Positions 16,926 to 52,231 of a stretch of 64,000 nucleotides of DNA are shown in pieces; positions within the stretch are counted from its first letter, which is position 1, and each line of letters begins with the position of its first letter. The DNA lies in assembly GCA_014859105.1 (NCBI GenBank), contig JACUUX010000003.1:1-64000 (forward strand), in the 5' to 3' direction. The DNA comes from Nitrospirota bacterium. GTDB taxonomy: Bacteria > Nitrospirota > Thermodesulfovibrionia > Thermodesulfovibrionales > SM23-35. Both the position numbers and the translations under genes were made by a program. The notes under the pieces were generated by a model. That model was given only the letters and a program-made list of their open reading frames with translations, was not told where the DNA came from and ran no database searches.

Positions 16926-17657
16926 ATGGAAAAGAAGAACGCTGTTGTCCTCCTCAGCGGAGGGGTCGATTCATCAACAGTTCTTGCATTTGCAAAATCT
17001 CAGGGATATGAATTATACGCTCTTACCTTCGATTACAATCAAAAACATAAGAGAGAACTCGATTCCGCAAAGATGGTCTCCTATACCCTCGGTGTAAAAA
17101 AACACCTGGTTATAAAATTTGACCTCAGAGAGATTGGTGGTTCTGCGCTGACGTCAGAGATGGAAGTACCAAAAACTTCATCCTTCATCCTTCATCCTTC
17201 ATCCTTTATTCCTGCTACCTACGTTCCAGCCCGGAATACCATATTTTTATCCTTTGGCCTTGCATGGGCAGAGGTTCTCGAGGCAGAAAACATATTTATT
17301 GGGGCAAATGCAGTTGACTACAGCGGTTATCCTGACTGCAGACCGGAATATCTCAAGGCATTTGAAGCAATGGCAAACCTTGCCACAAAGATATCTGTAG
17401 AAGGCAGGTTCAGGTTTAAGATCAACGCACCTCTTATCTATATGAAAAAATCTGATATTATCAAGACCGGAATGGCTCTCGGGCTTGATTACTCGTTGAC
17501 ATGGAGCTGTTATGATCCGCAGCCCTTAACCCCCCCTTCCCCCCCCCTTCTAAAGGGGGGGAAGGGGGGGGTTATTCCTTGTGGAAGGTGTGACAGCTGT
17601 GTCTTCAGGGCAATGGCATTTCAAGAGGCAGGGGTTAAAGATCCTTTATTGAGGTAA
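16926..17657 (+). CDS. queC: 7-cyano-7-deazaguanine synthase with repeat-encoded inserts
   Basis: QueC converts 7-carboxy-7-deazaguanine to preQ0 with ATP and ammonia, in queuosine biosynthesis. The 243-residue protein has the PP-loop SGGVDSST (11-18), [11 protein letters not shown] (99-109) and zinc ligands Cys195, Cys219, Cys222 and Cys225. Two low-complexity stretches look inserted. Residues 84-95 come from a tandem CATCCTT repeat. Residues 199-217 ([17 protein letters not shown] core) come from a C/G-rich palindrome and lie between the first and second zinc cysteines, where homologues have only a few residues. The frame stays open, so the protein is probably made. Confidence 0.92.
17520..17576. 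repeat. C/G-rich palindrome inside queC
   Basis: Runs of C (7 and 9) and then G (7 and 8), each pair separated by two bases, form a long imperfect hairpin centred near 17552. It is read in frame within queC. Related shorter palindromes (CCCCCTTA then TAAGGGGG) occur in the intergenic repeats at 16780 and 31115, and inside hemD near 39012. Confidence 0.8.
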
Positions 17658-17713
17658 ATGCGAAAAACTCACCGGTAAAATTCAGAGGCCGTCATCTTAT
17701 CTGGAGAGTGTTT

Positions 17714-18250
17714 GTGAAAAAGCTGCAAGTGAACTTTGATGAAATACAGAAGGCTATGGAAGATGTATCAAGGGATACTTTTGATTATTACCTTGATACA
17801 GATACAGGTGATGTCATATCTTTTTCAGATGAAATCCTGAGGGATATGCAATCCAGACTGTATGAGGATGAATACGACGAGATAGATGAAGACATTGAAT
17901 ACATAGAATACGATGAGGAACCTGATTTGCCTGACTGGATGCTTGATGAGGCAGACCTCGCATTGGAAATCCTCCTCGATGAAAGCGGAAGATATGTTCG
18001 AATTCCCGAAAGAAGTTCGCATACAGCATATAAATCAATGGAAGAATTTATAAAAACAGTTAAAGACCCGACACTGAAAGAAAGACTAACACATGCCCTT
18101 CAAGGCAAAGGTGCCTTCAGGAACTTTAAAGACGTTCTCATTGATTATCCCAGGGAGAGGAAGAAATGGCACGGCTTTAATGCCAAGACAATGAAAAGGG
18201 AAATCATTGAATGGTTGAGGTCTACAGGGACAGAGCCAATGTCTTATTAG
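17714..18250 (+). CDS. UPF0158 family protein, copy 1
   Basis: This roughly 178-residue acidic, soluble protein matches the uncharacterised UPF0158 family. The typical features are LDTDTGDVISFSDE (about 30-43), a strongly acidic stretch rich in Asp, Glu and Tyr (about 50-75), RYVRIPERSS and a C-terminal GKGAFRNFKDVLIDYP followed by WHGF. I prefer the GTG at 17714 with GGAGAG six bases upstream; a GTG two codons earlier is possible. It lies 50 bases after queC. A paralogue is at 27502-27999. The function is unknown. Confidence 0.8.
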   Translation: MKKLQVNFDEIQKAMEDVSRDTFDYYLDTDTGDVISFSDEILRDMQSRLYEDEYDEIDEDIEYIEYDEEPDLPDWMLDEADLALEILLDESGRYVRIPERSSHTAYKSMEEFIKTVKDPTLKERLTHALQGKGAFRNFKDVLIDYPRERKKWHGFNAKTMKREIIEWLRSTGTEPMSY

Positions 18251-18273
18251 TAAATTTTACTGAAACAATTTTT

Positions 18274-18555
18274 TCATTCGAGCCCCATCTTTTTTAAAGC
18301 CTCACTCGCTGTATCCGTTGTATTAGGTGCTTCTTCCGGTAGATAGAGCATAACCCCACCTTTTACAGGTCTCATTACAATCTTTCCTTCCCGTGCAAGT
18401 CTGTTTGTTATCTCGACAGGATTTTCTCCTTCGAAATATTTTTTGAATGCATTATTAAACCCTGAATAGACTGTATGTATTCCCTTGTACCCCTCTTTCC
18501 TCAAACTTACTATCGCCTTTTTCACAAACTCCTCATGACTTAATCTCTCTGACAT
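18274..18555 (-). CDS. Small conserved hypothetical protein
   Basis: This 93-residue soluble protein begins MSERLSHEEFVKKAI. The start at 18555 is set by AAAGGAGGAAATC just upstream; an ORF extension of ten residues lacks a ribosome site. IHTVYSGFNNAFKKYF is followed by an EITNRLAREGKIVMRPVKGG segment that looks like the wing of a winged-helix fold. The C-terminus is a short acidic helix. It lies 52 bases downstream of rmuC on the same strand. No function is assigned. Confidence 0.65.
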   Translation of the reverse strand: MSERLSHEEFVKKAIVSLRKEGYKGIHTVYSGFNNAFKKYFEGENPVEITNRLAREGKIVMRPVKGGVMLYLPEEAPNTTDTASEALKKMGLE

Positions 18556-18607
18556 GATTTCCTCCTTTCGAAACTGAAAAGCCATTTATAATCTTTAATC
18601 AGAAAAC

Positions 18608-20032
18608 TCATTCGACTATACTCAGGTCCCTTGGTTTCTGGTCTATCTGTTCGATTACAGGTATTTCATCGGCACCGGTAACCCCGAGTTCTTTAAACCT
18701 CCTTACCGAAGGCAATATCCTCAATTCCATAGAACCAACTGCTTTATTATATGCACCTACAGCCTTTCCAAGATTGGAGCCGATGCTGTCCAGATGCTGA
18801 ACCAATGTGTTCATCCTCTCATACAGTTGACGGCCCAATTCACTGATCTCCTGTGCATTCTTTGTAATCTGCTCCTGCCTCCAGCCATAGGCGATAGCCC
18901 TGAGCAAGGCAATAAGGGTTGTTGGAGTTGAAATTATAACCCGTCTTTGTATGCCGTCTTCGATGAGGGTAGTATCTATGTCCAGGGCTGAACTTAAAAA
19001 GGATTCGCCGGGGATAAAAAGCACAACAAATTCAGGTGACTGACGGAACTGACTCCAGTATTCCTTGGATGCGAGTTTATTCATGTGTGCCCTGACCTGC
19101 TGAGCGTGCCTCTCCATCTTTGCCTTTCTTTCATCTTCTGTTTGAGCAGAGACAGCATCGAGATACGATTCCAGTGATACTTTCGAATCAACAACAATCT
19201 CCCTGCCCATAGGCAGATGCACTATCATGTCAGGTCTTATTCTGCCTTTCTCTGTGTCCATCGATTGCTGTTCAGTAAAATCGCAGTGCACAGACATCCC
19301 TGACAGCTCTGCAACTCTCCGCAACTGCATCTCGCCCCATCTTCCGCGAACCTGCGGTCTTTTGAGTGCCGTAACAAGATTGGTTGTTTCCCTCTGGAGG
19401 CTTTCATGTGTTGAGGCAAGTGCCCTGAGCTGTTCTTCGAGGCTTCCGTATGCTTTGTGTCTGCTCTCCTCGATTGACCTTATCTGCTCCTCATATCTTT
19501 TAAGCATTTCATGCAAAGGTTTTATCATCCCGTCCATTGCCACCTGATGCTCCCCGAGTTTACCTTTTGTATCTGCAACAACCTTCCCGAGGTGTTCAGA
19601 AGCAAGCCTGAGAAAATCCTCGCTGCTGCTTTTGAGAGCAGCTGATGAAAGAGCATTGAATGTATCTGTCATTTCAGTCTTCATCGCTTCGATAATCGCC
19701 TTCTGTTCATCGAAGTTCTTACGGGCTGCGTCAAGTTTTGTAAAAGCCTCAACCTTTGACTGTCTCTCGCTATCAAGCTCATTTCTCAACTTATCGATTT
19801 CGGATTCCCTCAAATGTACCTGCTGCCTCAGTTCTTCAATCCGTGCCTCTGCACTGCTTGCCTTTTTTTCGAGTTCAGTAAGTTGATTTGCACAGGAGGA
19901 TTGCATATCTGCAATCTGTTTTGTACAAATAGCCTGAAAACGGGCTTTTGACAGAAACCATATAATTGGTCCTGCGATTATAATACCACTTATCAAACCG
20001 ATGATTATACATACTGTCTGTGTCATGCACAT
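18608..20032 (-). CDS. rmuC: DNA recombination protein RmuC
   Basis: RmuC-family proteins limit inversions and other rearrangements at short inverted repeats, and they carry a restriction-endonuclease-like core. The 474-residue protein has an N-terminal membrane segment (about 7-26), a coiled coil (about 38-130) and the RmuC domain (about 150-440). The domain includes VRGRWGEMQLRRVAEL, RPDMIVHLP and VVDSKVSL, the last holding likely nuclease residues. A second ATG two codons in has better ribosome spacing. It lies next to the AddAB-like pair, consistent with a DNA-maintenance cluster. Given the many palindromes in this window, its presence is notable. Confidence 0.93.
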   Translation of the reverse strand: MCMTQTVCIIIGLISGIIIAGPIIWFLSKARFQAICTKQIADMQSSCANQLTELEKKASSAEARIEELRQQVHLRESEIDKLRNELDSERQSKVEAFTKLDAARKNFDEQKAIIEAMKTEMTDTFNALSSAALKSSSEDFLRLASEHLGKVVADTKGKLGEHQVAMDGMIKPLHEMLKRYEEQIRSIEESRHKAYGSLEEQLRALASTHESLQRETTNLVTALKRPQVRGRWGEMQLRRVAELSGMSVHCDFTEQQSMDTEKGRIRPDMIVHLPMGREIVVDSKVSLESYLDAVSAQTEDERKAKMERHAQQVRAHMNKLASKEYWSQFRQSPEFVVLFIPGESFLSSALDIDTTLIEDGIQRRVIISTPTTLIALLRAIAYGWRQEQITKNAQEISELGRQLYERMNTLVQHLDSIGSNLGKAVGAYNKAVGSMELRILPSVRRFKELGVTGADEIPVIEQIDQKPRDLSIVE

Positions 20033-20061
20033 CCCCTTTCATCTCTAAAGCCTTTCACATC

Positions 20062-26833: not shown

Positions 26834-27403
26834 TTATTTTCTTTTAACCTGTTGCCGCACCTGATAAAGTTTTTCTGTGAAGCCGCCTTCTTTTAGAAAT
26901 TGTTTTTCCAGTTGTCGCAGTTGCTGGTCAAGTAAGTAATTTGCCTGATGAATTAAGCAAATAAGGGTGTTAGCTGCAACTTCTGGAAGCGAAGCCTCGA
27001 TATAAGTCCTATAGGTCTTATAGGACCTATTCTTTTCCCATGCAAGCTTCCGGATGGCTTGTGCCTGCTGATGACCTTTCTCCCAGAGTGTCAGTCCCCT
27101 CTGACGTAAAAAATCTTTGTAGTCGAGCAGTAATTCTTCCAGGCTTGCACGCGCTATACCGAGCAGTTTTAGTTCGCTCTTTTTCGAAGTGCCTGATACC
27201 ATACTGCCTTCGGCAATATTCTGCTTGCCGCTGCGCGCTGCCTGTACCATCTGATCATGCGTGCGCGATCGTTTGTCAATAAACCGATTGCAGAATACTG
27301 CTGTTGCGTCATAGATGATTTCTGCGGTCTGGTAGGATTTCAGATTGCAGTATCCGCCATGAGGGGGTATAAGATCAGGCTTTTTATCTTTCTTGTTTAT
27401 CAT
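26834..27403 (-). CDS. Four-helix-bundle suffix protein (S23-type)
   Basis: This 189-residue protein resembles the four-helix-bundle group related to proteins encoded in 23S rRNA intervening sequences. ARSGKQNIAEGSMVSGTSKK (about 57-75) is the recognisable signature, and NTLICLIHQANYLLDQQL the C-terminal helix. Residues 126-134 (RSYKTYRTY) come from a small palindromic, tandem CCTATA-type repeat at a position where relatives often carry variable short repeats. Binding of RNA or protein is only a guess. It sits in an accessory block beside the restriction system. Confidence 0.75.
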   Translation of the reverse strand: MINKKDKKPDLIPPHGGYCNLKSYQTAEIIYDATAVFCNRFIDKRSRTHDQMVQAARSGKQNIAEGSMVSGTSKKSELKLLGIARASLEELLLDYKDFLRQRGLTLWEKGHQQAQAIRKLAWEKNRSYKTYRTYIEASLPEVAANTLICLIHQANYLLDQQLRQLEKQFLKEGGFTEKLYQVRQQVKRK

Positions 27404-30839: not shown

Positions 30840-30996
30840 TACTAATCTTCCCCCACCCCTCTTTTTAAAAGAGGGGAATAAGGATTCTCTTTTCTTTCAA
30901 CTGATTCAATTGAATCATAAAATAAGATGTTTGTCAAGAAATAATTTTGATTGTTATATTTTATCTTATCACAGTACATATGATAGACAGATACAC
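30840..30996. other. Intergenic leader with a short palindrome
   Basis: This region holds CCCCTCTTTTTAAAAGAGGGG (30857-30877), a hairpin related to those in other repeats. An AT-rich stretch follows that may contain the promoter of the restriction operon on the minus strand. No gene is seen. Confidence 0.4.
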
Positions 30997-31401
30997 CTTA
31001 ACCCGGATAATTCATAGCGAACTCTGTTCCAATGGTTGATACGTAAAGCCGTCATTCCCGCTTGCCCTGTTAGAAATAAACTTTCTAACAGGGCTTGTCG
31101 GGAATCCTTCTGAATCCCCCTTAGTAAAGGGGGTTAGGGGGTTGTTCAAAGAAAGATTCTGGACAAGCCAGAATGACAGAATTGAAAAACTTAAACAACT
31201 TTTAATATCTTTGAGGGTTAATTCATAAATTTTCATGATCAAATATGGGATAGAGTATTTGAGCGGATTTTTTTGCCGATAGACAAATACACTATGTAAA
31301 AATAAAGAGGCAAAAGCCTCGGAGGGCGATAGCCCGAGAATGAGCGAAAATGCTCTATCCCATGTTAACATGCACAAACTTTGTGAATAATCCGGGCTAA
31401 G
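30997..31401. repeat. Dispersed repeat, composite A+B copy
   Basis: The outer ends CTTAACCCGGATAATTCA (30997-31014) and 31384-31401 are inverted repeats matching at 16 of 18 bases. Module A (31011 to about 31220) nearly duplicates 16675-16885. Module B (about 31240-31375) is a long imperfect palindrome: GGGATAGAGTATTTGAGCGG at one side, AATGCTCTATCCC at the other, with inner hairpins GAGGC/GCCTC and GGGC/GCCC. B recurs at 34420-34515 and, reversed, at 61811-62003. The right end stops 6 bases before the stop codon of the anti-sigma-like gene. An open frame across this region is spurious. Confidence 0.85.
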
Positions 31402-34210: not shown

Positions 34211-34556
34211 TTTAACCCCTTTAATTCATAGCGAACTCTGTTCAAATGGCTGATTCGTTAAGCCGTCATTCCCTGGCTTGACCAGGGAATCCAGAAGTAC
34301 GACTTATACGAAAGGTTCTGGATTGCCCGATCGTGGTCGGGCAATGACAGAATTGAAAAACTTAAACAACTTTTAAGATCTTTGATGATTAATAGCATAA
34401 ATTTTTCATGACAGACGGAGGATATAGTATTAGAGCGGATTTAAATTCTGTCCTTGACAGAATTTACCTCGGAGTCCCGGTAAAATCGGGATGAGAATGA
34501 GCGAAAATACTATATCCTTCGTCGTTAATCAATATTTTGTGAATTATCTGACTCAA
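34211..34556. repeat. Dispersed repeat, composite A+B divergent copy
   Basis: Module A ends match the other copies (TTCATAGCGAACTCTGTT from 34225; AACTTAAACAACTTTTAAGA near 34358). The interior hairpins differ: TCCCTGGCTTGACCAGGGA and TGCCCGATCGTGGTCGGGCA. Module B (about 34420-34515) keeps GAGCGGATTT and GAATGAGCGAAAATACTATA, again with different inner hairpins. The outer ends begin TTTAACCCC and end in TGAATTATC. The element reaches the stop codon of the flippase-like gene (34553-34555). Conserved ends with exchanged hairpins suggest modular evolution. Confidence 0.75.
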
Positions 34557-36397: not shown

Positions 36398-38500
36398 TTA
36401 ATATGTCTCCGGTAGTTGCATTTTTAAACCTTTAAAATTATAACACGTAAATATAGAATAATCCCTGATCTTGACATGCTTCTTAGTATAAGCACTGAAG
36501 AGCCTTTTCTCAACCTTATCAAAGGCTGCAGATACCTCTTCCGGCATTTTACTGTCTTCCAAACTCACATAAATTGCATTATAGTGGAGCAGGTCGTCAA
36601 ATCCTGGCCACAGGTCATACTGGTTCATTCTCCGGCCGAGATTAATGCAATAAGTCACAGGGTGACCTTTCACATAAAATGCAAGTTCGCTCGAAACCTG
36701 ATACCTGTCGGAAAATATGAACACTGGATGGGCAGAAGACATCTGTTCGTATATTTCTGTCACTTCAGCGCCGATTTCTTTCCAGCCTTGAAGACGCATT
36801 GTAGGGTCAAGTTTTACAGGAAGTCTGAGCAATGAAGGATAGTGACCTGTTGCTGTTACAATGACTGAAATTAATACAGCAGAACCTATTAAAACTTTCA
36901 TGCCTTTTCTCCCGGAATGTATTTTTCCTGTACAGAATGCAGTAAAAGCGACGATACCGGCTATATATCCGGGCAATGCCCAGTTTGCCTGTACCTTCGC
37001 CTGCAGACTTTTCAAAAGAAAAAAGGCAATTACCGGAACCGAAAACCAAAATAAAAGATAGCCTTTCCGGTCTTTTCTGAGCTTAAATATGGAAAAAATC
37101 ATAATTATTAATAAAACGGGTGTTATCACGCCTATTTGTGAACCCAAAAATTCAAAGAAGGTTTTAAGAGATATTTGTATCCCCTCTGCGACATGCGCCT
37201 GTCCGGCAGTATGCCTTAAAGTAACCCAGTCATTGTTGATATTCCATATAATCAAAGGGCTGAAAACTATGAGGCTGATAATAAAGGATAAATAAGGCCA
37301 TTTTGTCAGGAGTATTTTTCTGTATTCTCCCGATAACAACAAAGATAAAAATGCACAGGGATAAAAGAATGCCATGGTATATTTTGTTAAAAGGCCGAGG
37401 CCTGTTGAGAGGGCGAGAAGATACCAGTATATTAGTGATGAGTGATGCGTGTTTGGCACTGAATCATGATTCACAATGCATGATGAATGATTTTTATTAT
37501 CTTGTATCCTGTATCCTGCATCTTGCATCCTAATTCCTGCATTTATAGCCTTCCAGAAAAAGTACAGTGACAAAACCCAGAAAAATATGAAGGGGGAATC
37601 TATGGTGAAGACGATGCCATAAGTGGAAAAGAGGGGGATAAGTTGCAGCAGGATTGCAGCAGACAAACCGACTTTTTCATCATAAAGTTTTTTCCCGAGA
37701 ATGTACAGGATAATGCTGCTCAGGGCAGAGAGGACAACAGCCATTATCCTGATGCCGAAAACCGTATCGCCAAAAACAGAAGTCCCGAGAAAAATAAGAT
37801 AAGCAATCATAGGCCCCTTGGAGTAGTAACTCAAATCGAGCCTGCGGGACCATTCCCAGTAATGTGCTTCGTCAGGGCTCAAATCAAGCGGACCATTCAA
37901 AATATAGTAAATACGGAAAAGGCTGAGGGAAAGAAGAAAAACAAAGAGGACAGTCGTGTATGGTTTTTCTTTATATCTTTTTGATAACCATTTATACAGA
38001 CATACAACAGTAATCGCTAAAATTAAACCTACTACAGCACCCACAATAACATCAGATGGATAATGTACCCCGACGTATATTCTTGAAAAACCAATGAGTA
38101 TCGCTCCAGCAACAAAAGCATACCGCAACCTGTTTTTAAGCAAGACATAAAAGGGCATTGCAAAGGCAAAGGCATTTGCTGCATGGTTTGAAGGCATCGA
38201 AAAAGATTTTCCGCAACCCACAAGAACTCTGATAACATCAAGTTCATGACACGGTCTTATTCGCTCGAAATAATGTTTAAGAATATTTGAAGACCAGTCC
38301 GCTATCAGAAGCGATGAAAAGGCAAGGAAGAATAAAATCAGGGCATTTTTTTTGTCTTTAAAAAGAATCCATAAAAAAAGGGGCAAAAAAAATAGATATG
38401 CCTTTTTCGTTATAAGCGGCATCAAAAAGTCAAATAAACTATTCTGAAGGTTCCTGTTAATGAAGAAAAAAATGAGGGTATCTATTTCAGGAAGGCTCAT
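36398..38500 (-). CDS. PAP2 phosphatase fused to an ArnT-like glycosyltransferase
   Basis: This 700-residue membrane protein joins two enzymes. Residues 1-175 are a PAP2 lipid phosphatase: KHYFERIRP (75-83), SMPSNHA (101-107) and SRIYVGVHYPSD (139-150). Residues about 185-700 are a GT83/PMT-type transferase with LSPDEAHYWEWSRRLDLSYY (Asp210-Glu211) and a C-terminal soluble part. Such a fusion could transfer a sugar from undecaprenyl phosphate and dephosphorylate a carrier. Residues 321-356 look like a repeat-derived insert between membrane segments. The GT2 and flippase-like genes follow directly. Confidence 0.85.
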   Translation of the reverse strand: MSLPEIDTLIFFFINRNLQNSLFDFLMPLITKKAYLFFLPLFLWILFKDKKNALILFFLAFSSLLIADWSSNILKHYFERIRPCHELDVIRVLVGCGKSFSMPSNHAANAFAFAMPFYVLLKNRLRYAFVAGAILIGFSRIYVGVHYPSDVIVGAVVGLILAITVVCLYKWLSKRYKEKPYTTVLFVFLLSLSLFRIYYILNGPLDLSPDEAHYWEWSRRLDLSYYSKGPMIAYLIFLGTSVFGDTVFGIRIMAVVLSALSSIILYILGKKLYDEKVGLSAAILLQLIPLFSTYGIVFTIDSPFIFFWVLSLYFFWKAINAGIRMQDAGYRIQDNKNHSSCIVNHDSVPNTHHSSLIYWYLLALSTGLGLLTKYTMAFFYPCAFLSLLLSGEYRKILLTKWPYLSFIISLIVFSPLIIWNINNDWVTLRHTAGQAHVAEGIQISLKTFFEFLGSQIGVITPVLLIIMIFSIFKLRKDRKGYLLFWFSVPVIAFFLLKSLQAKVQANWALPGYIAGIVAFTAFCTGKIHSGRKGMKVLIGSAVLISVIVTATGHYPSLLRLPVKLDPTMRLQGWKEIGAEVTEIYEQMSSAHPVFIFSDRYQVSSELAFYVKGHPVTYCINLGRRMNQYDLWPGFDDLLHYNAIYVSLEDSKMPEEVSAAFDKVEKRLFSAYTKKHVKIRDYSIFTCYNFKGLKMQLPETY
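37433..37540. repeat. Short repeats inside the PAP2-glycosyltransferase gene
   Basis: Tandem and inverted short units (GTATCCTG, GCATCTTGCATCC, GATGAGTGATG, CATGATTCACAATGCATGAT) are read in frame as AGIRMQDAGYRIQD and a His/Ser-rich stretch. Coding capacity is retained over 36 codons. Confidence 0.65.
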
Positions 38501-38566: not shown

Positions 38567-40150
38567 TTATTTTTTAATCTTACATTTTGCATCTAATTTT
38601 TCCTTTGTTGTCCATTTAATTATCTCATCTACCATTGCCTCTATGGTAGAGACTTCAGGAATTATGGCAACTTTAAGCCCGGCTTTTTCTATGACCCTGG
38701 CTGTAACAGGACCTATGGCTGCTATGGTTACATCTTCAAGCAAATCCTCGGCGTCTTTTCCCATCATTTCCATGAAGTTATTGAATGTAGATGCACTTGT
38801 GAATGTAGCTATGGAAATCCTCCCCTCTTTTAAGAATCTTCTTAATCTCTTTCCGTAAAGTTCCGGTTTTATCGTCCTGTATGCTACAGGCACATCTATC
38901 TCCCCTCCAAGTTCTCTTACCTTTTCCGGGAAGATTTCACGCGCCACTTCAGCTCTTGGAAAGAGAAATCGCATACCTTTTAGGAGTTCAGAGGATACCC
39001 CCTCTTCAATCCCACCCTTGCTAAGGGGGTGGTGGTGTGTAAACGCTTTTATCAGTCCCTCAGCACGAAATTCATCAGGGATTAAATCTATCTTTATGCC
39101 ATATTTTTTTATCTCTTTTGCTGTCTTTGTGCCTATAGCGCATATCTTTATCCCTTTTAAATCTCTGATATCTCTGTCTTTCTCGAAGAATCTTTTTAAA
39201 AAATATTTAATACCATTCCTGCTGGTAAATATAAGCCAGTCATAAGTCTCTATTTTATCTATTGATCTGTCAAGATCATTGTAATTCTCGGGGGGTACAA
39301 TTTCGATTGTTGGAAACTCTATTATTTCTGCACCGAATTCTTCTAAAATTTCGAACTCTCCGGCATGTTCCCTTGTAACAAGAACCCTGTGTCTAAACAT
39401 GGGTTTTTTCTCATACCACTTAAGAGATTCCCTGAGTTTTACAACATCTCCGATTACCATTACCGCAGGGGGTTTTATATCCCTGGCTTTTATAAGCCCG
39501 GATATGGTGTTGAGTGTGCCAACGATAGTTGTCTGCTCTGGTCTTGTCCCCCATCTGATCACTGCAACAGGTGTATCAGGAGCCCTTCCATGTTCTATTA
39601 ATTTCTCAGTAACCAGGTCTATATTTTTTACAGCCATCAGGAAAACAAGTGTTCCCACTCCCGTGGCAAGCTTTGACCAGTCAATCGAGCTTTCCTTTTT
39701 TGTGACATCCTCATAGCCCGGCAAAACCGCAAATGATGATGAATAAAGCCTGTGTGTCAGGGGTATTCCTGCATATGCAGGTGCTGCAATTGAAGAACTG
39801 ACTCCGGGAACAACTTCAAACTCTATACCCTCTTTTGATAACACCTCTGCTTCTTCACCACCACGGCCAAAGATAAAAGGGTCACCACCTTTAAGTCTGC
39901 ATATAACTTTACCCTCTTTTGCCTTCTTCACAAGAATATCGTTAATCTCATCCTGCGTCATGCTATGATGGCCGCCACGTTTTCCTGCATATATAAACTC
40001 CGCATCGTGGTTTATGTAATTGAGGACCTGAGCATTAAGGTGAAAGTCATATATGACCACTTCTGCTTTTTTAAGGCAGCGCAGTCCTTTTACTGTTAAA
40101 AGCCCGATATCACCGGGACCAGCTCCGACTAAATAAACTTTGCCTTTCAT
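38567..40150 (-). CDS. cobA-hemD: Uroporphyrinogen-III methyltransferase/synthase fusion
   Basis: This 527-residue bifunctional enzyme works in siroheme and cobalamin synthesis. Residues 1-240 are the SAM-dependent methyltransferase: YLVGAGPGDIGLLTVKG, RLKGGDPFIFGRGGEE (85-100) and VVPGVSSSIAAPAYAGIPLT. Residues about 253-515 are uroporphyrinogen-III synthase: VLVTREH, FTSRNGIKYF, AIGTKTA and FTSASTFNNF. Residues 371-388 (HHHPLSKGGIEEGVSSE core) are an apparent repeat-encoded insert between EGLIKAF and GMRFLFPRAEV, normally near neighbours. The last dozen residues are also low-complexity. No other heme genes are adjacent. Confidence 0.93.
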   Translation of the reverse strand: MKGKVYLVGAGPGDIGLLTVKGLRCLKKAEVVIYDFHLNAQVLNYINHDAEFIYAGKRGGHHSMTQDEINDILVKKAKEGKVICRLKGGDPFIFGRGGEEAEVLSKEGIEFEVVPGVSSSIAAPAYAGIPLTHRLYSSSFAVLPGYEDVTKKESSIDWSKLATGVGTLVFLMAVKNIDLVTEKLIEHGRAPDTPVAVIRWGTRPEQTTIVGTLNTISGLIKARDIKPPAVMVIGDVVKLRESLKWYEKKPMFRHRVLVTREHAGEFEILEEFGAEIIEFPTIEIVPPENYNDLDRSIDKIETYDWLIFTSRNGIKYFLKRFFEKDRDIRDLKGIKICAIGTKTAKEIKKYGIKIDLIPDEFRAEGLIKAFTHHHPLSKGGIEEGVSSELLKGMRFLFPRAEVAREIFPEKVRELGGEIDVPVAYRTIKPELYGKRLRRFLKEGRISIATFTSASTFNNFMEMMGKDAEDLLEDVTIAAIGPVTARVIEKAGLKVAIIPEVSTIEAMVDEIIKWTTKEKLDAKCKIKK

Positions 40151-43692: not shown

Positions 43693-43696
43693 AACC

Positions 43697-44533: not shown

Positions 44534-44597
44534 AATTTTTAACTTTTTAATTCCCCGTAGTCTTGCTACAGTAGACCCTGCGGTCTTGCAGGATGAT

Positions 44598-45862: not shown

Positions 45863-45911
45863 TGTTAATTTCAATTTGTAAAGTGTAAAAATTTAATGAA
45901 ATAAGCAAGCA

Positions 45912-46274: not shown

Positions 46275-46280
46275 TAATAT

Positions 46281-46532: not shown

Positions 46533-46770
46533 TTTCTAAGTACCTCCTCTTCAGACTTAAATTCCTTGTAACCGGATCTTTAATCTTGTCACTCTTTTTC
46601 AAAATATCAGATTTTCATGGGAAAACCCTTTCTTCGGTAAAGATTGCTAAACGATTAAATTCTACCTTAATTTAAAAATATATCTCAATTTCTATGAAAG
46701 ACCCTAAAATATTCCTGGCCAAAATTCAAAAATAAGATAACATCGGTCTTCAAAAACAAAGAGGAAGAAA

Positions 46771-46968
46771 TTACCACTTAGGTGCTCGACCTTTTAAATA
46801 ATAGTTACCGCTATCATATTCAAGAAAGCCTTCGCTAACAAGTTCTTCTATAGCATCTTTAGCGATATCTAATTCTTTTGCTGCAAAAAGATTGTCCTTT
46901 ATAAGTTCACTCCATCTTCGAGTAAAAGAAAAATGAGCGTTTCTTTGGCCATCTTGAAAAAATCGCAA
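46771..46968 (-). CDS. Small winged-helix-like protein, possibly incomplete
   Basis: A 65-residue frame starts at a TTG (46968) and looks like a winged helix: AKELDIAKDAIEELVSEGFL then EYDSGNYYLKG. The coding-like sequence extends further upstream (KKTKEQKRILKDRI) to a stop just before it, with no ATG, so the true start is unclear or the gene is a fragment. It lies 92 bases downstream of the large ATPase-DUF3883 gene on the same strand and may be a regulator of that block. Confidence 0.45.
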   Translation of the reverse strand: MRFFQDGQRNAHFSFTRRWSELIKDNLFAAKELDIAKDAIEELVSEGFLEYDSGNYYLKGRAPKW

Positions 46969-47060
46969 TATGCGATCTTTTAGTATTCTCTTTTGTTCTT
47001 TGGTCTTTTTGACTTAAAATCTAAATATTACATCTTTTATAAAATTGAAGCAACTCATGC

Positions 47061-49502
47061 CTAACCCTTATGTGCAAGCCACTTATTCTTTGGAACTGTA
47101 GCACGCTCAACAGGGTCACAGATATCTTTAACCTTAGTAATTTCTTTATATCTTACTTTATCGGGTTGATTTGGAAGATTATAAACGCAGATTAAAACAT
47201 AATCTTTATCTTGTACTGCCTTCCAGTGATTGGGGCCTAACGGTACATCTTCTGGTTCACTCATACCTTTCACTTCAAAGACTTTTTCACAATGACCCTT
47301 ACACTCGTAATCATAGCCTAACTTATCATGCTGGGTTACACGAGAAACGCTGTCGCGATGTTCACTCTCACGCAGTCTTTCTTCAAATATTGCGTATGCT
47401 GTTGTTTCGATCAGACTTCTATCTTTCTCTTTATTAAATCCATGAACACCCCACTTTTCGAAATATTCACTTATTCTATCCATATTCTGTTCTACGAGAT
47501 AGTTTTTATGAACAGGTTGATATCCAGGGAGCAGATAAGCTTTCCAAAGTGGTAACCAGTCCAATGGTGCTCTTGGAACAAACAAGTGTTTAGTTTCTAT
47601 AAAAGTTCCATCCTGTGCAATTAATCTATTTATTATGTAATCACCCCCTTCATTAATAATTAAAAGTGTGGCTTGAATAATATCGTTGAGAGCAAACTCA
47701 AGCTCATCATGGGAGCCTTTAAAAGTGTTAATTTTTTCCACTAATTCTTTAACAACTGTTTGCTTATTTATTTCTTTAAGACCACAACTCTTAAGACTTT
47801 CAACAGCATCTCTATTTCTTGCAATTTCTGGATGTAATAGCTTTTTGTCTTCTGGAATGACTTGTTTCAATAAGTTAGGTATTTGATCTAAACTTATTGC
47901 GATATTTATTACTTGATCTGCTGTATATAGCTCTCTGTCTTCGGCGAGTACGAATAAATTGTTAGATAAAGGTCTGTCTTTTGGTGCAAAGTCTTTAGGC
48001 AGGATATATATCTTGGCTAACTTTTGTGGTTTGTTTTTAAGATTATCCAAAATTTTCTTTTTACCAAAAATATTATATTTTTTTATCCTATCTCCCTCGC
48101 TTACTCTGGACCAGAGATGATCTTTTATACTATGCTTCACAATTTTTTTATTCGTTATTTCTTCTAACATGTTTAAGTCTTCTTCTCCAAAGATTTGTTC
48201 AATATCTTCATCCACAATCGTCAGTTCTTCAAGCTTACGCCTATTTCCATGACGATCAAAATAACAACTCTCGGTTTCAAGAAAAGTCTTGATAGGATCC
48301 CTTAATCTGCTATTCCAGAATTTTGCACTTTCACCTGAAAGGGAACCAAATGGTAAATCCTGAAGAAGTCTGGCTGGAAAGGACTCCCATTGTTCATGAT
48401 ATAAAAATATTTCTTTTATTATTTCTTTGAAAAATTCAAATATTTTATCAGATATCCAATGATTCCACTTAGCACTATAGCTAATTAACTCTCGTCCAGG
48501 TAGTGGAATAAAATCTCCAAAAATCCCAAATGGTAAACCAGTCTGTTCACCTTCTATCGGCAGAAAAGAATAAACACCCGCAAGCTTGCCATATAAAGGC
48601 TGAATATTCTTCGTATTGTCTAACTTAAAAACTACCCCTATCTCCCGCTTCGGAATTTCGGAACGACGAACACGCTCTGTTTCCTCATCTTTTTTGATCT
48701 CTTCGGGGATTGGAATAACCTTACGGAAAACTAAATACCAGTCTTCTTCGCTATACCGCTGTCCTACTATCTGCTTTTTTAAGATGATAACCTCTTTTTT
48801 ACCAACGGGAAGGGATTCAGAGGATTCAATTTCCTTTGTGATAGTAAAAGATAATGAAGTGGTCTGTATTTCTATGGCTTTAACATATTCCAATTGAAGA
48901 ATTGCTTCTTTAGGAAAATCAGGGCCTATAAGAAATTCCTTGATTTTTTGCAATATCTCTTGTCCTTTTGCACTTGCCATCGGAACATAAAAGCCAGTAG
49001 TGTAGCCCTCTGGCAAATCTACAGGATGGTTTTCAATCGGCAAAATTTCCCAAGGCCATTTTGAGAGAGGAACCCCTTGCCTTTTAGAATCTTCCCAGTG
49101 TTGCTTATCAAACTTAAAATGATAATCACCGGAGTGTATGTCTATACGATTGGTAATATGGAATATGGATTTAAAACCGATGCCAATGTAGCCACGAAAG
49201 CCCAAGGAAGGGAGTTTAAAGGAATTTACATCGCAAATGGCGTAGAAATCGTGATTATCAAATACCTTGCCGTTATTGAGAATCCATAACGAGTCTTGCT
49301 GAAGATGGATGGAGAATCTTTTTACATCGGCTCTATCAGCATCTTTTGTAGCATCTTCTGCATTCTGGAGAAACTCCAAAATCCAGTGTTTCGGAGAAGG
49401 GAATACAGACTCAAGAGTTTTTAGCATATTTACATAGCCACCCCACAGAGGGGTTTTTATCTGTGCCAGGAGATTTTGCAGGTGCTCTGAGACAATGCTC
49501 AT
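47061..49502 (-). CDS. Sacsin-like GHKL ATPase with C-terminal DUF3883
   Basis: This 813-residue protein has an HSP90-like ATPase domain at the N-terminus: ILEFLQNAEDATKDADRADV (41-60, N box with Asp) and GFRGYIGIGFKSIF (101-114, glycine-rich lid). This is the arrangement of the sacsin/NO VEIN group. A long central region of unknown fold follows. The C-terminus (about 720-813) matches DUF3883, with Asp731, Glu743 and Lys745 in GYDYEC and VFEVKG arranged like a PD-(D/E)XK nuclease. An ATPase joined to a nuclease-like domain, in an accessory block, suggests defence against foreign DNA, but this is not proven. Confidence 0.8.
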   Translation of the reverse strand: MSIVSEHLQNLLAQIKTPLWGGYVNMLKTLESVFPSPKHWILEFLQNAEDATKDADRADVKRFSIHLQQDSLWILNNGKVFDNHDFYAICDVNSFKLPSLGFRGYIGIGFKSIFHITNRIDIHSGDYHFKFDKQHWEDSKRQGVPLSKWPWEILPIENHPVDLPEGYTTGFYVPMASAKGQEILQKIKEFLIGPDFPKEAILQLEYVKAIEIQTTSLSFTITKEIESSESLPVGKKEVIILKKQIVGQRYSEEDWYLVFRKVIPIPEEIKKDEETERVRRSEIPKREIGVVFKLDNTKNIQPLYGKLAGVYSFLPIEGEQTGLPFGIFGDFIPLPGRELISYSAKWNHWISDKIFEFFKEIIKEIFLYHEQWESFPARLLQDLPFGSLSGESAKFWNSRLRDPIKTFLETESCYFDRHGNRRKLEELTIVDEDIEQIFGEEDLNMLEEITNKKIVKHSIKDHLWSRVSEGDRIKKYNIFGKKKILDNLKNKPQKLAKIYILPKDFAPKDRPLSNNLFVLAEDRELYTADQVINIAISLDQIPNLLKQVIPEDKKLLHPEIARNRDAVESLKSCGLKEINKQTVVKELVEKINTFKGSHDELEFALNDIIQATLLIINEGGDYIINRLIAQDGTFIETKHLFVPRAPLDWLPLWKAYLLPGYQPVHKNYLVEQNMDRISEYFEKWGVHGFNKEKDRSLIETTAYAIFEERLRESEHRDSVSRVTQHDKLGYDYECKGHCEKVFEVKGMSEPEDVPLGPNHWKAVQDKDYVLICVYNLPNQPDKVRYKEITKVKDICDPVERATVPKNKWLAHKG

Positions 49503-49511
49503 TTATTTTAC

Positions 49512-49778
49512 CTATTTATTAATTTTGATTAGATGGAAATATGGTTTGCCTCCAAAGAGCATACCTTTTATTTGTGACTTATTTACAATTACACTTGATG
49601 GTCGAAACTCTAAGATTATTTTTTCTACATTACCTTTCATCTCCTCATAAATATGGTCTATACGGTCTATCACTTTACAAATTTGGTTACCAAAAGTTTC
49701 TACATTTCCATTATAGTGTAATTCTAAATAAGGAAATGGATCATCCTTATATTTGAAGATTACCAAAATCTTCTTCAT
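49512..49778 (-). CDS. Small hypothetical protein upstream of the ATPase-DUF3883 gene
   Basis: This 88-residue protein begins MKKILVIFKYKDDPFPYLEL and ends in KPYFHLIKINK; the body has alternating strands and a helix (VIDRIDHIYEEMKGNVEK). The ATG at 49778 has GGGAG upstream; an extension of eight residues is possible. It ends 9 bases before the ATPase gene, so the two are probably co-transcribed. No family is recognised. Confidence 0.55.
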   Translation of the reverse strand: MKKILVIFKYKDDPFPYLELHYNGNVETFGNQICKVIDRIDHIYEEMKGNVEKIILEFRPSSVIVNKSQIKGMLFGGKPYFHLIKINK

Positions 49779-49868
49779 AATAGCTAATCTCCCTGTTACC
49801 AATTTCTTTATGGTCTTATTTTCTCTTCAGCCTAGCTGTTTTGGGGTTCATGACCATTGATTCTATCA

Positions 49869-49893
49869 GATGCTGAAACAAGTTCAGCATGAC
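49869..49893. repeat. Short hairpin repeat shared with 1959-1983
   Basis: GATGCTGAA, five loop bases, TTCAGCATGAC differs from 1959-1983 only in two loop bases. It lies between aroA and the accessory block, where a boundary could be expected. Confidence 0.6.
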
Positions 49894-49947
49894 ATCTTGC
49901 ACAGTTTGCTTTTTTTAAGAATTCTTAATTTGCAATCTGCACTTTCA

Positions 49948-51309
49948 TTATGCTGTTAGCCTCCTCAAAATCTCAAAAAAGCCCGGAAAAGAGATGTTAA
50001 CTGATGAAACATCACTAATAACAGTCTCCCCCTCTGCAATCAAAGCTGCGATGCTCAGGGCCATTGCAATCCTGTGATCTCCATGGCTTTCAAGAAATGC
50101 CCCCTTAAGTTTCGTTTTGCCTGTGATACTCAGGCCATCCTCAAATTCCTCTATTTCAGCACCCATCTTTTTTAGCTCTGTTGCCATGCTCTTGATTCTA
50201 TCTGATTCTTTTACCCTGAGTTCCTCAGCACCTCTGATAGTTGTATTACCTATAGCCTGGGTTGCTGCAACACATAACACGGGAAATTCATCAATTAATA
50301 CAGGAATTTTTTCTTCTGTAATATTTACGGGGTTTAGCTCCACAGTGCTTCTACATTTAATATCTGCAACAGGTTCACCGGATAAGTTTCTTATGTTATA
50401 AATCTCGATATCAGCACCCATCTCTTTGAGCACACTCAGAAGTCCTGTCCTTGTAGGATTAATTCCCACCCCTTGTATTGTGATATTAGAACCTTCTATT
50501 AATAATGCACCCACTATAAAAAATGCAGCAGATGAGAAATCTCCCGGCACATGAACCTCTGTTCCTCTTAATTCCGGTAATCCTTTTATCTTAATACTTA
50601 ACCCTTCAACTTTTATTTCGGCTCCAAAAGCCGGCAGCATCCTTTCTGTATGGTCCCTTGATTTTACAGGTTCTATCACTTCTGTTTCTCCGTCTGCATA
50701 GAGACCGGCGAGCAATATTGCTGATTTTACCTGTGCACTGGCAATCGGCATTATGTATTTAATTGCATGTAACATTTCCCCTTTTATTGCTATTGGAGGA
50801 AATCTATCACCGTCTCGAGCCATTATTCCTGCCCCCATCTTCCTTAAAGGGGCGATAACCCTTCCCATCGGTCTTGCTCTTAAGGATTCATCGCCTGTAA
50901 GTACAGAGAGAAACGGATTCCCTGATAGAATACCTGAAAGCATTCTTATCGTAGTCCCTGAATTTCCGCAATCAATCACGTTATAAGGTTCTTTCAGGCC
51001 ATATAGTCCTTTCCCGTTGATTATAAGTTCGGAGGCGGGAGTTAGGAGCTCGGAGCTTTCACCCCCTCCCTTACCCTCCTCCCTCGAGGGGGAGGGATGG
51101 GTGGGGGTGACTTCTGTAATTTCAACACCAAGCATCCTCATAGCATTCACGGTGCTTTTTGTATCTTCTGCCCTTAGAAAGTTCTTTATAATGCTTTTTC
51201 CGTTTGAGAGGGACGAGAATATTACTGCCCTGTGGGATATGGATTTATCAGGGGTAGGAGAAAATTTGCCTTTAAACTTCCTTGCTTTCCTGAGTTCAAT
51301 TCTGTTCAA
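49948..51309 (-). CDS. aroA: 3-phosphoshikimate 1-carboxyvinyltransferase with insert
   Basis: AroA (EPSP synthase) joins phosphoenolpyruvate to shikimate-3-phosphate. The 453-residue protein is about 25 residues longer than usual. Signatures are DKSISHRAVIFSSL, IDCGNSGTTIRMLSGIL, VPGDFSSAAFF and RVKESDRI. Residues 68-93 (THPSPSREEGKGGGESS core) fill what is normally a short loop before the ELIINGKGLYGLKEP strand and come from a G/C-rich palindrome. The start is TTG with GAGG seven bases upstream, overlapping tyrA by 14 bases. It is the last gene of the aromatic operon. Confidence 0.95.
   Translation of the reverse strand: MNRIELRKARKFKGKFSPTPDKSISHRAVIFSSLSNGKSIIKNFLRAEDTKSTVNAMRMLGVEITEVTPTHPSPSREEGKGGGESSELLTPASELIINGKGLYGLKEPYNVIDCGNSGTTIRMLSGILSGNPFLSVLTGDESLRARPMGRVIAPLRKMGAGIMARDGDRFPPIAIKGEMLHAIKYIMPIASAQVKSAILLAGLYADGETEVIEPVKSRDHTERMLPAFGAEIKVEGLSIKIKGLPELRGTEVHVPGDFSSAAFFIVGALLIEGSNITIQGVGINPTRTGLLSVLKEMGADIEIYNIRNLSGEPVADIKCRSTVELNPVNITEEKIPVLIDEFPVLCVAATQAIGNTTIRGAEELRVKESDRIKSMATELKKMGAEIEEFEDGLSITGKTKLKGAFLESHGDHRIAMALSIAALIAEGETVISDVSSVNISFPGFFEILRRLTA
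51031..51108. repeat. G/C-rich palindrome inside aroA
   Basis: CACCCCCTCCCTTACCCTCC near 51060 and GGAGGGATGGGTGGGGGTG near 51091 form an imperfect hairpin around CCCTCGAGGG. A short tandem motif (GGAGTTAGGAGCTCGGAGCT) adjoins it. All is read in frame in aroA as a Pro/Ser/Gly/Glu-rich stretch. Confidence 0.75.
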
Positions 51310-52231
51310 TACCTTCCCTCAGTGTCCGGGCTTTTTGAAAATCCTGCTCAAGGGATTCGGAATCATAAGCCCTGAGATACTGACTTACCCTATCGAGATT
51401 TTTTTTAAATACATCGATAGATTCAAGAAGATTTTCCTTATTAAGAAGACAAATATCACGCCATAATTCTGGTGAACTCGTTGCTATTCTTGTGGTATCC
51501 ATAAAACCCTGTCCTGAAAAATTAAGGTATGAACTGTCTATATCAGCTACTGTGTTTAATATTTCATATGCTACTAAATGAGGAAGATGGCTGACAACTG
51601 AATATATCTTATCATGTTCATAAGGATCGATAATTTTGATGACTGAGCCAAAGGATTTCCATAAAGCAATAATTTTTTCAAGGGCATTTTTATCAGTTTT
51701 GTCAGTGGGTGTAATAATACATTTTGCGCCCCTGAATATCTCTGCCGTTGCTGTATCGACACCTGAACGATTACTACCGGCTATTGGATGTCCTCCAACA
51801 AACCAGACACCATCCGGCATCAGTTCCTCCATTTCCTTTACGAGGTTCCCCTTTACACTGCCAACATCTGTAACTATTGAATCAAGCTTTAGCGAATTAA
51901 TTATTTTCCCTGCAATATCCGTAAAAGTACCAACAGGAGTTGCAAACAATATAAGGTCTGAATCAGCACATGCCTCTGAGGGATCAAGATCAAAGGAATC
52001 TACTATTCCTCTTTCCTTAGCTTTCTTCAGATTCTCAACATTCCTTCCAAACCCTGCTATACGGGTGCAGAGGTTATGCTTCCTCAATGCAAGAGCAAAA
52101 GATGCACCGATCAGTCCTACACCGATGATGGTGACCTTATTGAAAAAAATACGACCCGGTGACTCGGTGAATTGGTGAAGGGGCGAAGTGTCTCCGTGTC
52201 TCCGTGCCTCCGTATCTCTTTTTGTAATCAT
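51296..52231 (-). CDS. tyrA: Prephenate dehydrogenase with repeat-derived N-terminus
   Basis: TyrA oxidises prephenate to 4-hydroxyphenylpyruvate for tyrosine. This 311-residue protein has the Rossmann motif [17 protein letters not shown] at 33-49, about 30 residues later than usual. [16 protein letters not shown] and [14 protein letters not shown] are family motifs. The first 30 residues (with [10 protein letters not shown]) come from a tandem CGGAGACAC/GGTGACTCGGTGA-type repeat. The ATG overlaps the aroF stop by 4 bases and has GGGAG upstream, so translation probably starts there and reads through the repeat. No regulatory ACT domain is seen. Confidence 0.93.

Follow-up and report, generated by a model that had tools for sequence, protein, structure and literature searches.

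The heptamer inserts in several conserved protein genes of a Nitrospirota bacterium are probably the remains of small hairpin elements that are defined by architecture, with C/G palindromes forming a separate class; we assign this interpretation a rough probability of 0.67. An element of this type would comprise a tandem heptamer arm, usually purine-rich, followed by a loop and then an inverted heptamer arm. The loop of a long form would hold an ORF for an S23/four-helix (TIGR02436) protein, the loop of a short form would be a short spacer that is often A-rich, and both forms would be found at many places. Within protein genes, selection would spare only the in-frame copies residing in tolerant loops or at ends. 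These copies would decay, drop an arm, or give way to an element carrying another heptamer, and the site itself would continue to be used. The C/G palindromes would represent a second, REP-like class that shares the same tolerant loops.

An earlier note on this DNA listed in-frame repeats in seven stretches of protein-coding sequence within the window (the entire 64,000-nucleotide stretch analysed). Six of these stand, located in QueC (two sites), a PAP2-glycosyltransferase, the HemD part of CobA-HemD, AroA and TyrA (see table). Five reside in loops and that of TyrA at the start of the protein, and the ORFs stay open, as the note had proposed. The seventh, a four-helix protein, was ruled out as an insert carrier: its core matches TIGR02436, its C-terminal part corresponds to the curated domain TIGR04258, and heptamer arms were not seen within 140 bp on either side of its gene. 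The note had also proposed that several repeat families are involved. There is indeed more than one, but they reduce to two classes, G/C palindromes and arrays with the heptamer architecture.

Repeat-bearing stretches and the S23-type gene in the window.
Feature	Position	Strand	Repeat, domain or predicted peptide
QueC loop 1	17174..17210 (array 17176-17206)	+	Heptamer array (TTCATCC)4; 12-letter predicted peptide
QueC loop 2	17527..17574	+	C/G palindrome; 16-letter predicted peptide
S23/TIGR02436 four-helix gene, 'suffix' subfamily (TIGR04258)	26834..27403	-	Curated-domain matches; without repeat insert
PAP2-glycosyltransferase insert, ~33 aa	about 37439..37537	-	CAGGATA heptamer arm, A-rich spacer, degenerate partner arm
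CobA-HemD, HemD part	about 38995..39035	-	Degenerate C/G palindrome; predicted peptide HHHPLSKGGIEEGV
AroA insert, about 24-26 aa	about 51034..51111	-	C/G palindrome (THPSPSREEGKGGGE), then degenerate CTCCGAA heptamers (SELLTPASE)
TyrA 5' end	52153..52231	-	Period-8 array 52153-52213 (CACGGAGA) and partner stretch; N-terminal extension of 25 aa

The heptamer inserts of the window are decayed, and their folding is not above that of shuffled sequences. The PAP2-glycosyltransferase insert and the TyrA 5' stretch give fold z values of 0.12 and -0.18, with shuffles equally good, and the QueC loop 1 array forms no structure when folded alone. The palindromes yield z values of -2.7 (QueC loop 2, folded as single-stranded DNA and better than shuffles), -3.3 (AroA) and -1.15 (HemD). 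Two of the stretches depart from the plan given above, since the TyrA array has a period of 8 and QueC loop 1 is single-armed, retaining only the pyrimidine-rich arm of a hairpin that usually has both.

Alignment reveals that the six stretches are inserts with respect to relatives, which at these places have either a short loop or a different repeat. The AroA loop is 42 aa long here. Of 28 aligned relatives, 17 have a loop of 17-19 aa, three of 24-30 aa and eight of 32-43 aa, and most of these eight long loops hold other palindromes or heptamers (G006, in which only a distant AroA paralogue was present, was excluded). The loop of the PAP2-glycosyltransferase spans 50 aa; among 24 relatives, it spans 17-25 aa in eight and 31-64 aa in the other 16. 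A homologous insert resides in one relative (G001, locus L323), and the remaining relatives are without it or have a different one. The HemD loop has 38 aa here; 28 relatives were compared, 11 of them with 21-29 aa and 17 with 31-59 aa. Seven families (35 genomes) have array-free QueC genes; where the loop motifs were found in these, the usual length of loop 1 is 7-13 aa, with a maximum of 18 (1 of 27), and that of loop 2 is 8 aa, with a maximum of 12. Only in G009 and G010 does the TyrA alignment start as early as residue 4; in the rest of the matched relatives it starts no earlier than residue 21. Relatives were not seen to conserve these stretches in a form lacking repeat character. Misassembly is unlikely to be the general cause, because two congeners share the QueC loop 1 array and complete plasmid records hold heptamer arrays. 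A search of papers for the insert peptides returned a single match, which was unrelated.

Heptamer periodicity extends well beyond these genes. A scan of 930,751 bases from this genome (with a 4-kb overlap between two stretches trimmed) gave 16 degenerate arrays scoring at least 15 at period 7, and zero or one at each other period from 4 to 16. A slightly different cut gives 17 at period 7 and 0-2 at other periods, and an order-3 Markov sequence gave zero period-7 arrays, even at score 12. Among 30 heptamer arrays of this genome, 20 lie within ORFs of at least 100 aa, eight are intergenic and two cross an ORF end, figures to be read against a coding fraction of 0.834, a permissive ORF caller and several arrays near the 5' ends of ORFs. 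The inserts are therefore not peculiar to the 35 kb in which they had been noticed, as heptamer arrays are found elsewhere in this genome sample. The 30 arrays are built from 21 distinct heptamer units with no common sequence, and the class is defined by its period and architecture (arms, often inverted) and not by sequence. Across 79 genomes, including this one, QueC open frames contain 49 arrays of period 7, versus five for periods 4-6 and 8-12 together. Heptamer arrays are present in QueC of 29 of these genomes, mostly in the same two loops (frames were read stop to stop, hence a few arrays outside them), and the heptamers differ even within one genus. The earlier note's proposal of a genome-wide process combined with a filter for reading frame is supported by these data, as arrays and palindromes are dispersed, do not interrupt ORFs, and at a given loop vary from one relative to another. 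Within the hairpin-element interpretation, we infer that the frame is preserved purely by selection.

Some of the same observations could be explained if the arrays arise in place through replication slippage or hairpin-templated repair, with selection keeping the frame and S23 genes merely lying in repeat-tolerant regions. Both the units along an array and their copy number are variable, the different arrays found at one loop could have expanded independently, and two congeners (G012 and G018) carry a related QueC loop 2 array that differs in extent. Slippage alone, however, does not predict a single period of 7, nor does it predict the occurrence of one heptamer in many phyla. Three copies of the QueC loop 1 unit (a 21-mer) are present in at least 120 stretches from many phyla.

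Arm orientation provides further evidence on this question. Among 34 pairs of adjacent arrays, inverted identity exceeds direct identity in 23, falls below it in six and is tied in five (p = 0.0023), and reversing arm B worsens the folding relative to the actual arrangement, whichever strand is considered (p about 1e-4). For the six adjacent pairs in this genome, inverted identity is not clearly in excess over direct. Among the matches listed for 120 cross-phylum loci, GGATGAA/TTCATCC pairs no more than 1500 nt apart are in the purine-first hairpin order in 26 cases and in the opposite order in one, and slippage alone does not predict this 26:1 bias. For elements above an alignment score and with L414, L419 and L420 excluded, the autocorrelation of the arms reaches 0.545 at lag 7 and 0.484 at lag 14, compared with 0.25-0.36 at other lags. 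A strand comparison of hairpin wobble pairs on the same basis, used as a test for RNA, gives 85 sense versus 62 antisense (p = 0.069). Purine counts of arms carry the same restrictions and additionally exclude QueC of G016. The purine-rich upstream arm of long forms may derive in part from a double role as ribosome-binding region, and stop codons may be the cause of the polarity of coding short forms.

Standalone S23/TIGR02436 ORFs are located between inverted heptamer arms scoring at least 16 at 22 of 28 loci (those with short or duplicate flanks having been removed before counting), compared with 3 of 112 mismatched pairs and 0 of 112 random positions. The fraction is 20 of 26 when L116 and L133 are left out, which had been recruited by the heptamer pattern; in both, the QueC heptamer itself adjoins an S23 ORF. 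Complete plasmid records give the same arrangement in seven of nine cases (six Cyanobacteriota, one Bacteroidota), two of which (L413 and L414) are nearly identical copies. These nine were taken from 13 matches, leaving out three further Riemerella records and a second Calothrix record. At the remaining six S23 loci and two plasmid loci, no inverted arms reached the threshold. Flanks were measured from match ends because arms frequently overlap ORF ends. An earlier test that began at ORF ends was weaker, with 12 of 27 above threshold versus 3 of 52 control ORFs. Mean flank scores are 18.3 inverted and 14.2 direct, versus 8.8 and 9.1, respectively, at random places, such that S23 flanks favour inversion only modestly (p = 0.02). 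Searches of open-licence PMC papers turned up no statement of free-standing S23 genes between inverted heptamer arms.

ORF-bearing and shorter states occur among relatives at two sites. Two S23 units of G004 are absent at the matching places in G001 and G013. Judging from alignment coordinates, the first of these units (~450 nt) appears as an ORF-less hairpin in the congener G016 (98% identity), in which 17 nt between the arms correspond to 400 nt of the unit. This short form is known from those coordinates only and lies beside a contig end, with a right flank of 63 nt at 89% identity. For a further unit (L404), the match in G012 is on another contig (72%) and the stretch beyond maps elsewhere, and therefore no matching place is defined. 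Slippage alone predicts neither one ORF family between arms nor places that alternate between ORF-bearing and shorter states, and we consider it an unlikely explanation overall. Under the hairpin-element interpretation, the short forms in genes would descend from S23 elements, and the S23 protein would aid their movement.

Genome content bears on which proteins might be involved, although all of the following associations were computed ignoring phylogeny. Outside QueC, genomes with TIGR02436 contain 50 arrays in 1.459 Mb (34 genomes, of which this one contributes 29 in 0.93 Mb), and the 24 genomes without it contain one array in 0.363 Mb. The two features also occur apart: G046 carries arrays in QueC but lacks a TIGR02436 match, and families f7 and f8 have TIGR02436 and no QueC arrays. 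S23 proteins are similar to Avd, an accessory protein of diversity-generating retroelements, according to an excerpt of PMC10053308, and a reverse-transcriptase system (a DGR-like retroelement in which S23 would take the part of Avd) might accordingly make and spread the arrays. However, RVT_1 is about as frequent where QueC arrays are present (11 of 29 genomes) as where they are absent (18 of 50; p = 1.0), and its correlation with array density is nil (Spearman 0.02). Of the 29 array-bearing genomes, 18 lack the match expected of a diversity-generating retroelement. Reverse transcriptase was rejected as the driver because this association is absent, and such a system seems the most improbable of the explanations considered.

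Y1/RAYT transposases, which move REP sequences, could instead move all of the hairpins. Y1_Tnp is common (62 of 81 genomes) and weakly associated with both QueC arrays (27 of 29 genomes with arrays, 34 of 50 without; p = 0.012) and array density (Spearman 0.29, p = 0.025). However, G003 and G043 carry QueC arrays with neither a Y1_Tnp nor an RVT_1 match, and the heptamer units have no sequence in common, making this route improbable for the hairpins as a whole. It is plausible for the C/G palindromes, which have a common sequence plan, unlike the heptamer units. This genome has five Y1_Tnp matches. The palindrome class is concentrated in this lineage. Our filter retains 15 palindromes from 0.93 Mb of sequence of this genome, with one of the 15 clearly different in sequence. 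It retains one from 0.26 Mb of family relatives, none from 0.37 Mb of four other families, and one, different in sequence, from 0.86 Mb of cross-phylum loci. A single family uniting palindromes and heptamers was set aside, given this concentration of the palindromes.

A broader proposal, which we offer tentatively and hold to be somewhat less probable than not, is that S23/four-helix proteins are the hallmark of widespread tiny mobile hairpins, which would be recognised by the seven-base periodicity of their arms and not by sequence. The rRNA intervening sequences (IVSs), the Nostoc trnL P6b stem, dispersed heptamer repeats of bacteria and in-frame heptamer peptides in proteins would all be products of these elements, whose periodic stem might be bound by a protein ring and then cut and joined by host enzymes. 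The hairpin-element interpretation may link the bacterial excess of heptamers, the role of S23 proteins and rRNA IVSs, and the odd low-complexity peptides in conserved enzymes, and it supplies a candidate mobile unit that is testable. For annotation, it warns that such loops are lineage-specific inserts.

The known systems closest to the S23 units are 23S rRNA IVSs, which lie within a helix of 23S rRNA and are excised by RNase III; hairpin elements bearing an S23 gene have until now been known mainly from such interrupted rRNA genes. These IVSs have complementary stem ends and an S23 ORF in the loop, and in Coxiella burnetii tandem heptamers lie just upstream of this ORF (PMC4990558). Their size of 428-444 nt is comparable to the approximately 450 and 495 nt of two measured units, and the role of S23 proteins and rRNA IVSs is called unclear in the excerpt (PMC4990558). 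Complementary ends that can form a stem were found at 22 of the 28 loci and in 7 of the 9 plasmid records, and an S23p ORF occupies the loop in the long forms only. The units differ in that they are read here in or between protein genes and not in a 23S rRNA helix, and that short ORF-less forms reside inside protein genes. S23 units have the anatomy of 23S rRNA IVSs, but are free-standing.

Elhai et al. are said to have found in 2008 that small dispersed repeats of Nostoc often lie within tandem heptamers. Dispersed tandem heptamers are also described for TAACTGA in Beggiatoaceae, scattered over distant lineages (PMC4679880), and for GGGAATC-type units in Xanthomonas and Nostoc (PMC4692102), but these are mostly intergenic direct repeats, and the excerpts do not describe an S23 ORF or inverted-arm unit. 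The P6b stem of the Nostoc trnL group I intron likewise consists of complementary seven-nucleotide repeats whose class is swapped at the same place; this, however, is a cyanobacterial RNA gene, and an S23 ORF is not mentioned in the excerpt (PMC4476775). Borg tandem repeats are fast-changing and lie within ORFs with the frame kept, as seen here, but their in-ORF units are divisible by three (PMC9879509), whereas here the unit is 7 and the whole insert keeps the frame. MITEs are characterised by target-site duplication and by terminal inverted repeats that match those of a transposase-bearing element. Here, inverted arms are present, and the ORF of the larger partner belongs to the S23 family, which is not named as a transposase family.

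Rickettsia palindromic elements share sequence within each family. These elements, of 105-146 bp, are in-frame hairpin DNA in conserved protein genes and are also intergenic (PMC2229807), and the earlier note's comparison with them is apt as an analogy. The heptamer arrays likewise occur both as in-frame inserts in conserved proteins and as intergenic copies, but what they have in common is period and architecture and not sequence.

Seven insert-bearing stretches had been claimed in conserved proteins of the window, and six of these, in QueC (loops 1 and 2), the PAP2-glycosyltransferase, the HemD part of CobA-HemD, AroA and the 5' end of TyrA, do carry inserts in the sequence. The four-helix protein was rejected as an insert carrier, as its core is a match to TIGR02436 (the S23 family) and its tail is the curated domain TIGR04258; no heptamer arms were seen within 140 bp on each side of its gene. 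Alignment of the proteins with relatives, a check proposed in the earlier note, revealed that the inserts in the QueC, AroA, PAP2-glycosyltransferase and HemD loops are missing or unlike in relatives. QueC was matched in 79 of 81 genomes, counting the window's own. Seven families (35 genomes) are free of QueC arrays; where loop motifs could be located in them, most loop 1 lengths are 7-13 aa (maximum 18, in one of 27) and most loop 2 lengths 8 aa (maximum 12). These loops reach 35 and 42 aa in genomes with arrays. The AroA loop has 42 aa in the own genome, compared with 17-19 aa in 17, 24-30 aa in three and 32-43 aa in eight of 28 aligned relatives. Corresponding values are 50 aa for the PAP2-glycosyltransferase (17-25 aa in eight and 31-64 aa in 16 of 24 relatives) and 38 aa for HemD (21-29 aa in 11 of 28 relatives, 31-59 aa in the other 17).

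Two classes of repeat make up these inserts. The start of the PAP2 insert is common to two congeners (G004 and G016), after which a C/G palindrome follows in one and CTCATCC-like heptamers in the other. Heptamer hairpins in the window are decayed and fold no better than shuffled sequences (z 0.12 for PAP2, -0.18 for TyrA), and QueC loop 1 retains a single arm only. Palindromes fold clearly better than shuffles in QueC (z -2.7) and AroA (z -3.3), and weakly so in HemD (z -1.15).

The tandem arrays have a strongly preferred period. At a score of at least 15, the 930,751 bases of the own genome hold 16 arrays at period 7 and 0 or 1 at each other period from 4 to 16; at score 12 the numbers are 30 and 0-8. 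These 30 arrays comprise 21 distinct units with no common sequence, and are located within ORFs of at least 100 aa (20), between genes (8) or across an ORF end (2). Many units contain AGT (AGTTCAA, AGTCATT, AGTGAAA, AGTTCGG, AGTGACG), which, judged from the letters, is possibly a common core. QueC open frames from 79 genomes yield 49 arrays at period 7 and five at periods 4-6 and 8-12 together. At least one array is present in 29 of the 79 genomes, distributed among families f1 (17/20), f2 (5/6), f5 (3/6), f11 (1/1), f12 (1/5) and f13 (2/6), with none in the 35 genomes of f3, f4 and f6 through f10.

QueC usually has two arrays, A and then B, separated by a short spacer that is often rich in A. 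Among 34 non-redundant adjacent pairs, many of them from QueC loci, inverted identity exceeds direct identity in 23, falls below it in six and ties in five (p 0.0023). Folding of the best strand with RNA parameters gives a mean of -23.9 kcal/mol for the real arm order versus -16.9 with arm B reversed (p 3e-4). The six adjacent pairs of the own genome show no clear inverted excess by themselves; one of them (L040) is a near-perfect heptamer hairpin. In a cross-phylum set of at least 120 loci, picked by three copies of TTCATCC, GGATGAA and TTCATCC arrays no more than 1500 nt apart form 26 purine-first pairs in hairpin order, spaced by 10 to 167 nt, versus one in the opposite order, among the matches listed for 120 loci. 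The first arm is likewise the more purine-rich in 13 of 14 QueC pairs, a bias to which avoidance of stop codons could add.

Many S23 ORFs, on reading of their flanks, have inverted arms on either side, an arrangement that we call the long form; the short form is arm-spacer-arm without an ORF. When the 160 bp upstream were aligned to the reverse complement of the 160 bp downstream, 22 of 28 usable S23 loci scored at least 16. That score was reached by 3 of 112 mismatched pairs and by none of 112 positions drawn at random within these loci. Two loci (L116 and L133) entered the set through a heptamer pattern, and 20 of 26 are armed without them. An earlier test, measured from the ends of the ORFs, put 12 of 27 S23 loci above the threshold versus 3 of 52 control ORFs. 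Mean flank scores are 18.3 inverted and 14.2 direct, a modest preference (p 0.02), versus 8.8 and 9.1 at random places. Arm autocorrelation peaks at lags 7 (0.545) and 14 (0.484), with 0.25-0.36 at other lags. Of the 28 long forms, 24 have a purine-rich upstream arm (three fall below one half and one is a tie). Strong direct similarity was also observed around the S23 genes of L410, L034, L405 and the second unit of L398, accompanied by inverted similarity in all but L405, which suggests several elements stacked at one place. Twenty TIGR02436 genes were picked by their match to the family, in genomes from families that have arrays. These genes and the 500 bp on either side contain 20 arrays (score at least 12), a flank density of about 101 per 100 kb. 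Farther out there are four at 500-1500 bp, seven at 1500-3000 bp and five at 3000-5000 bp (10, 13 and 8 per 100 kb), and the own-genome sample background is 3.2 per 100 kb. Slippage alone, as the source of the arrays, would leave their period, their arm order and this link to S23 unexplained.

This local evidence is stronger than the genome-level association. TIGR02436, RVT_1 (reverse transcriptase) and Y1_Tnp (Y1 transposase) are matched in 53, 29 and 62 of 81 genomes, respectively. With kinship ignored, TIGR02436 is present in 28 of 29 genomes with QueC arrays versus 23 of 50 without (Fisher 1.9e-6), and Y1_Tnp is weakly tied to arrays (27/29 versus 34/50; p 0.012). A reverse transcriptase as maker of the arrays finds no such association, with RVT_1 in 11 of 29 and 18 of 50 of these 79 genomes. 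Spearman correlations of array density with gene count, kinship again ignored, are 0.39 (TIGR02436), 0.29 (Y1_Tnp) and 0.02 (RVT_1). Outside QueC, and with kinship ignored here as well, 34 genomes with TIGR02436 contain 50 arrays in 1.459 Mb, with the 0.93 Mb of the own genome giving 29, and 24 genomes without it contain one in 0.363 Mb. Some TIGR02436 matches in four genomes (G030, G064, G102 and G123) have internal stop codons, indicating decayed S23 genes in several genomes.

One locus of G004 (L398) carries two armed S23 units. The left flank of the first aligns with G016 at 98% up to a point within the left arm, and alignment restarts within the right arm, over a right flank of 63 nt (89%) next to the end of a contig, such that 400 nt in G004 equal 17 nt in G016 by alignment coordinates. 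Together with the arm letters of G004, these coordinates predict a short hairpin of ~69 nt in G016 instead of ~450 nt. In G001 and G013, respectively, the first unit is missing (462 versus 115 nt; 455 versus 44 nt), as is the second (498 versus 105 nt; 495 versus 133 nt). Between these two genomes the alignment ends agree to 1-2 nt, apart from a difference of 8 nt on the right of the first unit. These absences fit gain or loss alike.

Agreement in other phyla is partial. An S23 relative was matched in 13 plasmid records, nine of which were read. Seven of the nine have inverted arms (six Cyanobacteriota, one Bacteroidota), Nostoc edaphicum and Calothrix brevissima among them; this raw count includes a near-duplicate pair of Nostoc records. 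S23 genes on Nostoc HK-01 and Gemmatirosa plasmids show no inverted arms at the threshold. The S23-like gene of the Gemmatirosa kalamazoonensis plasmid (L420) has CTCCTGCC-like units in direct arrays on both sides, which score 31 in direct and 10 in inverted orientation. The QueC loop 1 heptamer adjoins S23 ORFs in Desulforhopalus vacuolatus (L116) and a Verrucomicrobia MAG (L133), and no others were found at E 1e-4 among the 120 cross-phylum loci listed.

Features located by position in the window or by plasmid record
Feature	Coordinates	Description
Four-helix (S23) protein gene	26834-27403	
Dispersed repeat, about 230 nt	16654-16886, 30990-31222, 34211-34394, 56014-56187	Four copies: two full, two partial; the fourth is inverted
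Inverted repeat pair, 183 nt	31217-31399, 61812-61994	93% complementary, 30 kb apart
Nostoc edaphicum plasmid S23 gene		GGGAACA repeats before, TGTTCCC repeats after
Calothrix brevissima plasmid S23 gene		GGGTGTA-like and CTACACC repeats

The C/G palindromes (for example, CCCCCCTTACCCCCCTTTAGTAAAGGGGGGTAAGGGGGG) follow a common sequence plan, look REP-like and are concentrated in this lineage. The same filter passes 15 in 0.93 Mb of the own genome (one clearly different in sequence), one in 0.26 Mb of family relatives, none in 0.37 Mb of four other families and one, different in sequence, in the 0.86 Mb of cross-phylum loci. A looser pattern finds 47 in the own genome, 32 of them within ORFs of at least 100 aa. 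Searching with the AroA insert gave 25 further short matches elsewhere in relatives, 21 within open frames longer than 200 aa (candidate genes); two of these correspond to the HemD and QueC inserts described above. Full copies of the dispersed repeat carry a perfect 13-nt hairpin (GCCCTGTTAGAAA/TTTCTAACAGGGC); this repeat is possibly MITE-like, and no link to heptamers was seen in the window. The second copy of the 183-nt pair has an internal inverted repeat.

The window's arrays may descend from an S23 unit, a reading based on their common architecture, a heptamer found in both and a single coordinate-based comparison between congeners. Small hairpin elements would insert at many sites, some keeping the S23 ORF, a putative mobility helper, and others losing it. 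Selection would be the sole keeper of frame, such that only in-frame copies placed in loops survive in protein genes, where they would then decay and be replaced.

S23 proteins are similar to Avd, according to an excerpt of PMC10053308, and the solved structure of a Xanthomonas member (2gsc) is given as a homopentamer in the portion of PMC4990558 consulted. That portion also describes the Coxiella intervening sequence (IVS) of 23S rRNA as 428-444 nt, its ORF preceded by tandem GACAGAT heptamers. A further parallel is the P6b stem of Nostoc trnL, which an excerpt of PMC4476775 describes as paired seven-base repeats in which one class replaces another. IVSs and long forms alike have ends that are complementary to each other and a loop that holds an S23 ORF. 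However, IVSs are defined by their place inside rRNA and the units read here lie elsewhere; by that definition the long-form units are not IVSs themselves, and in anatomy they are free-standing relatives of IVSs.
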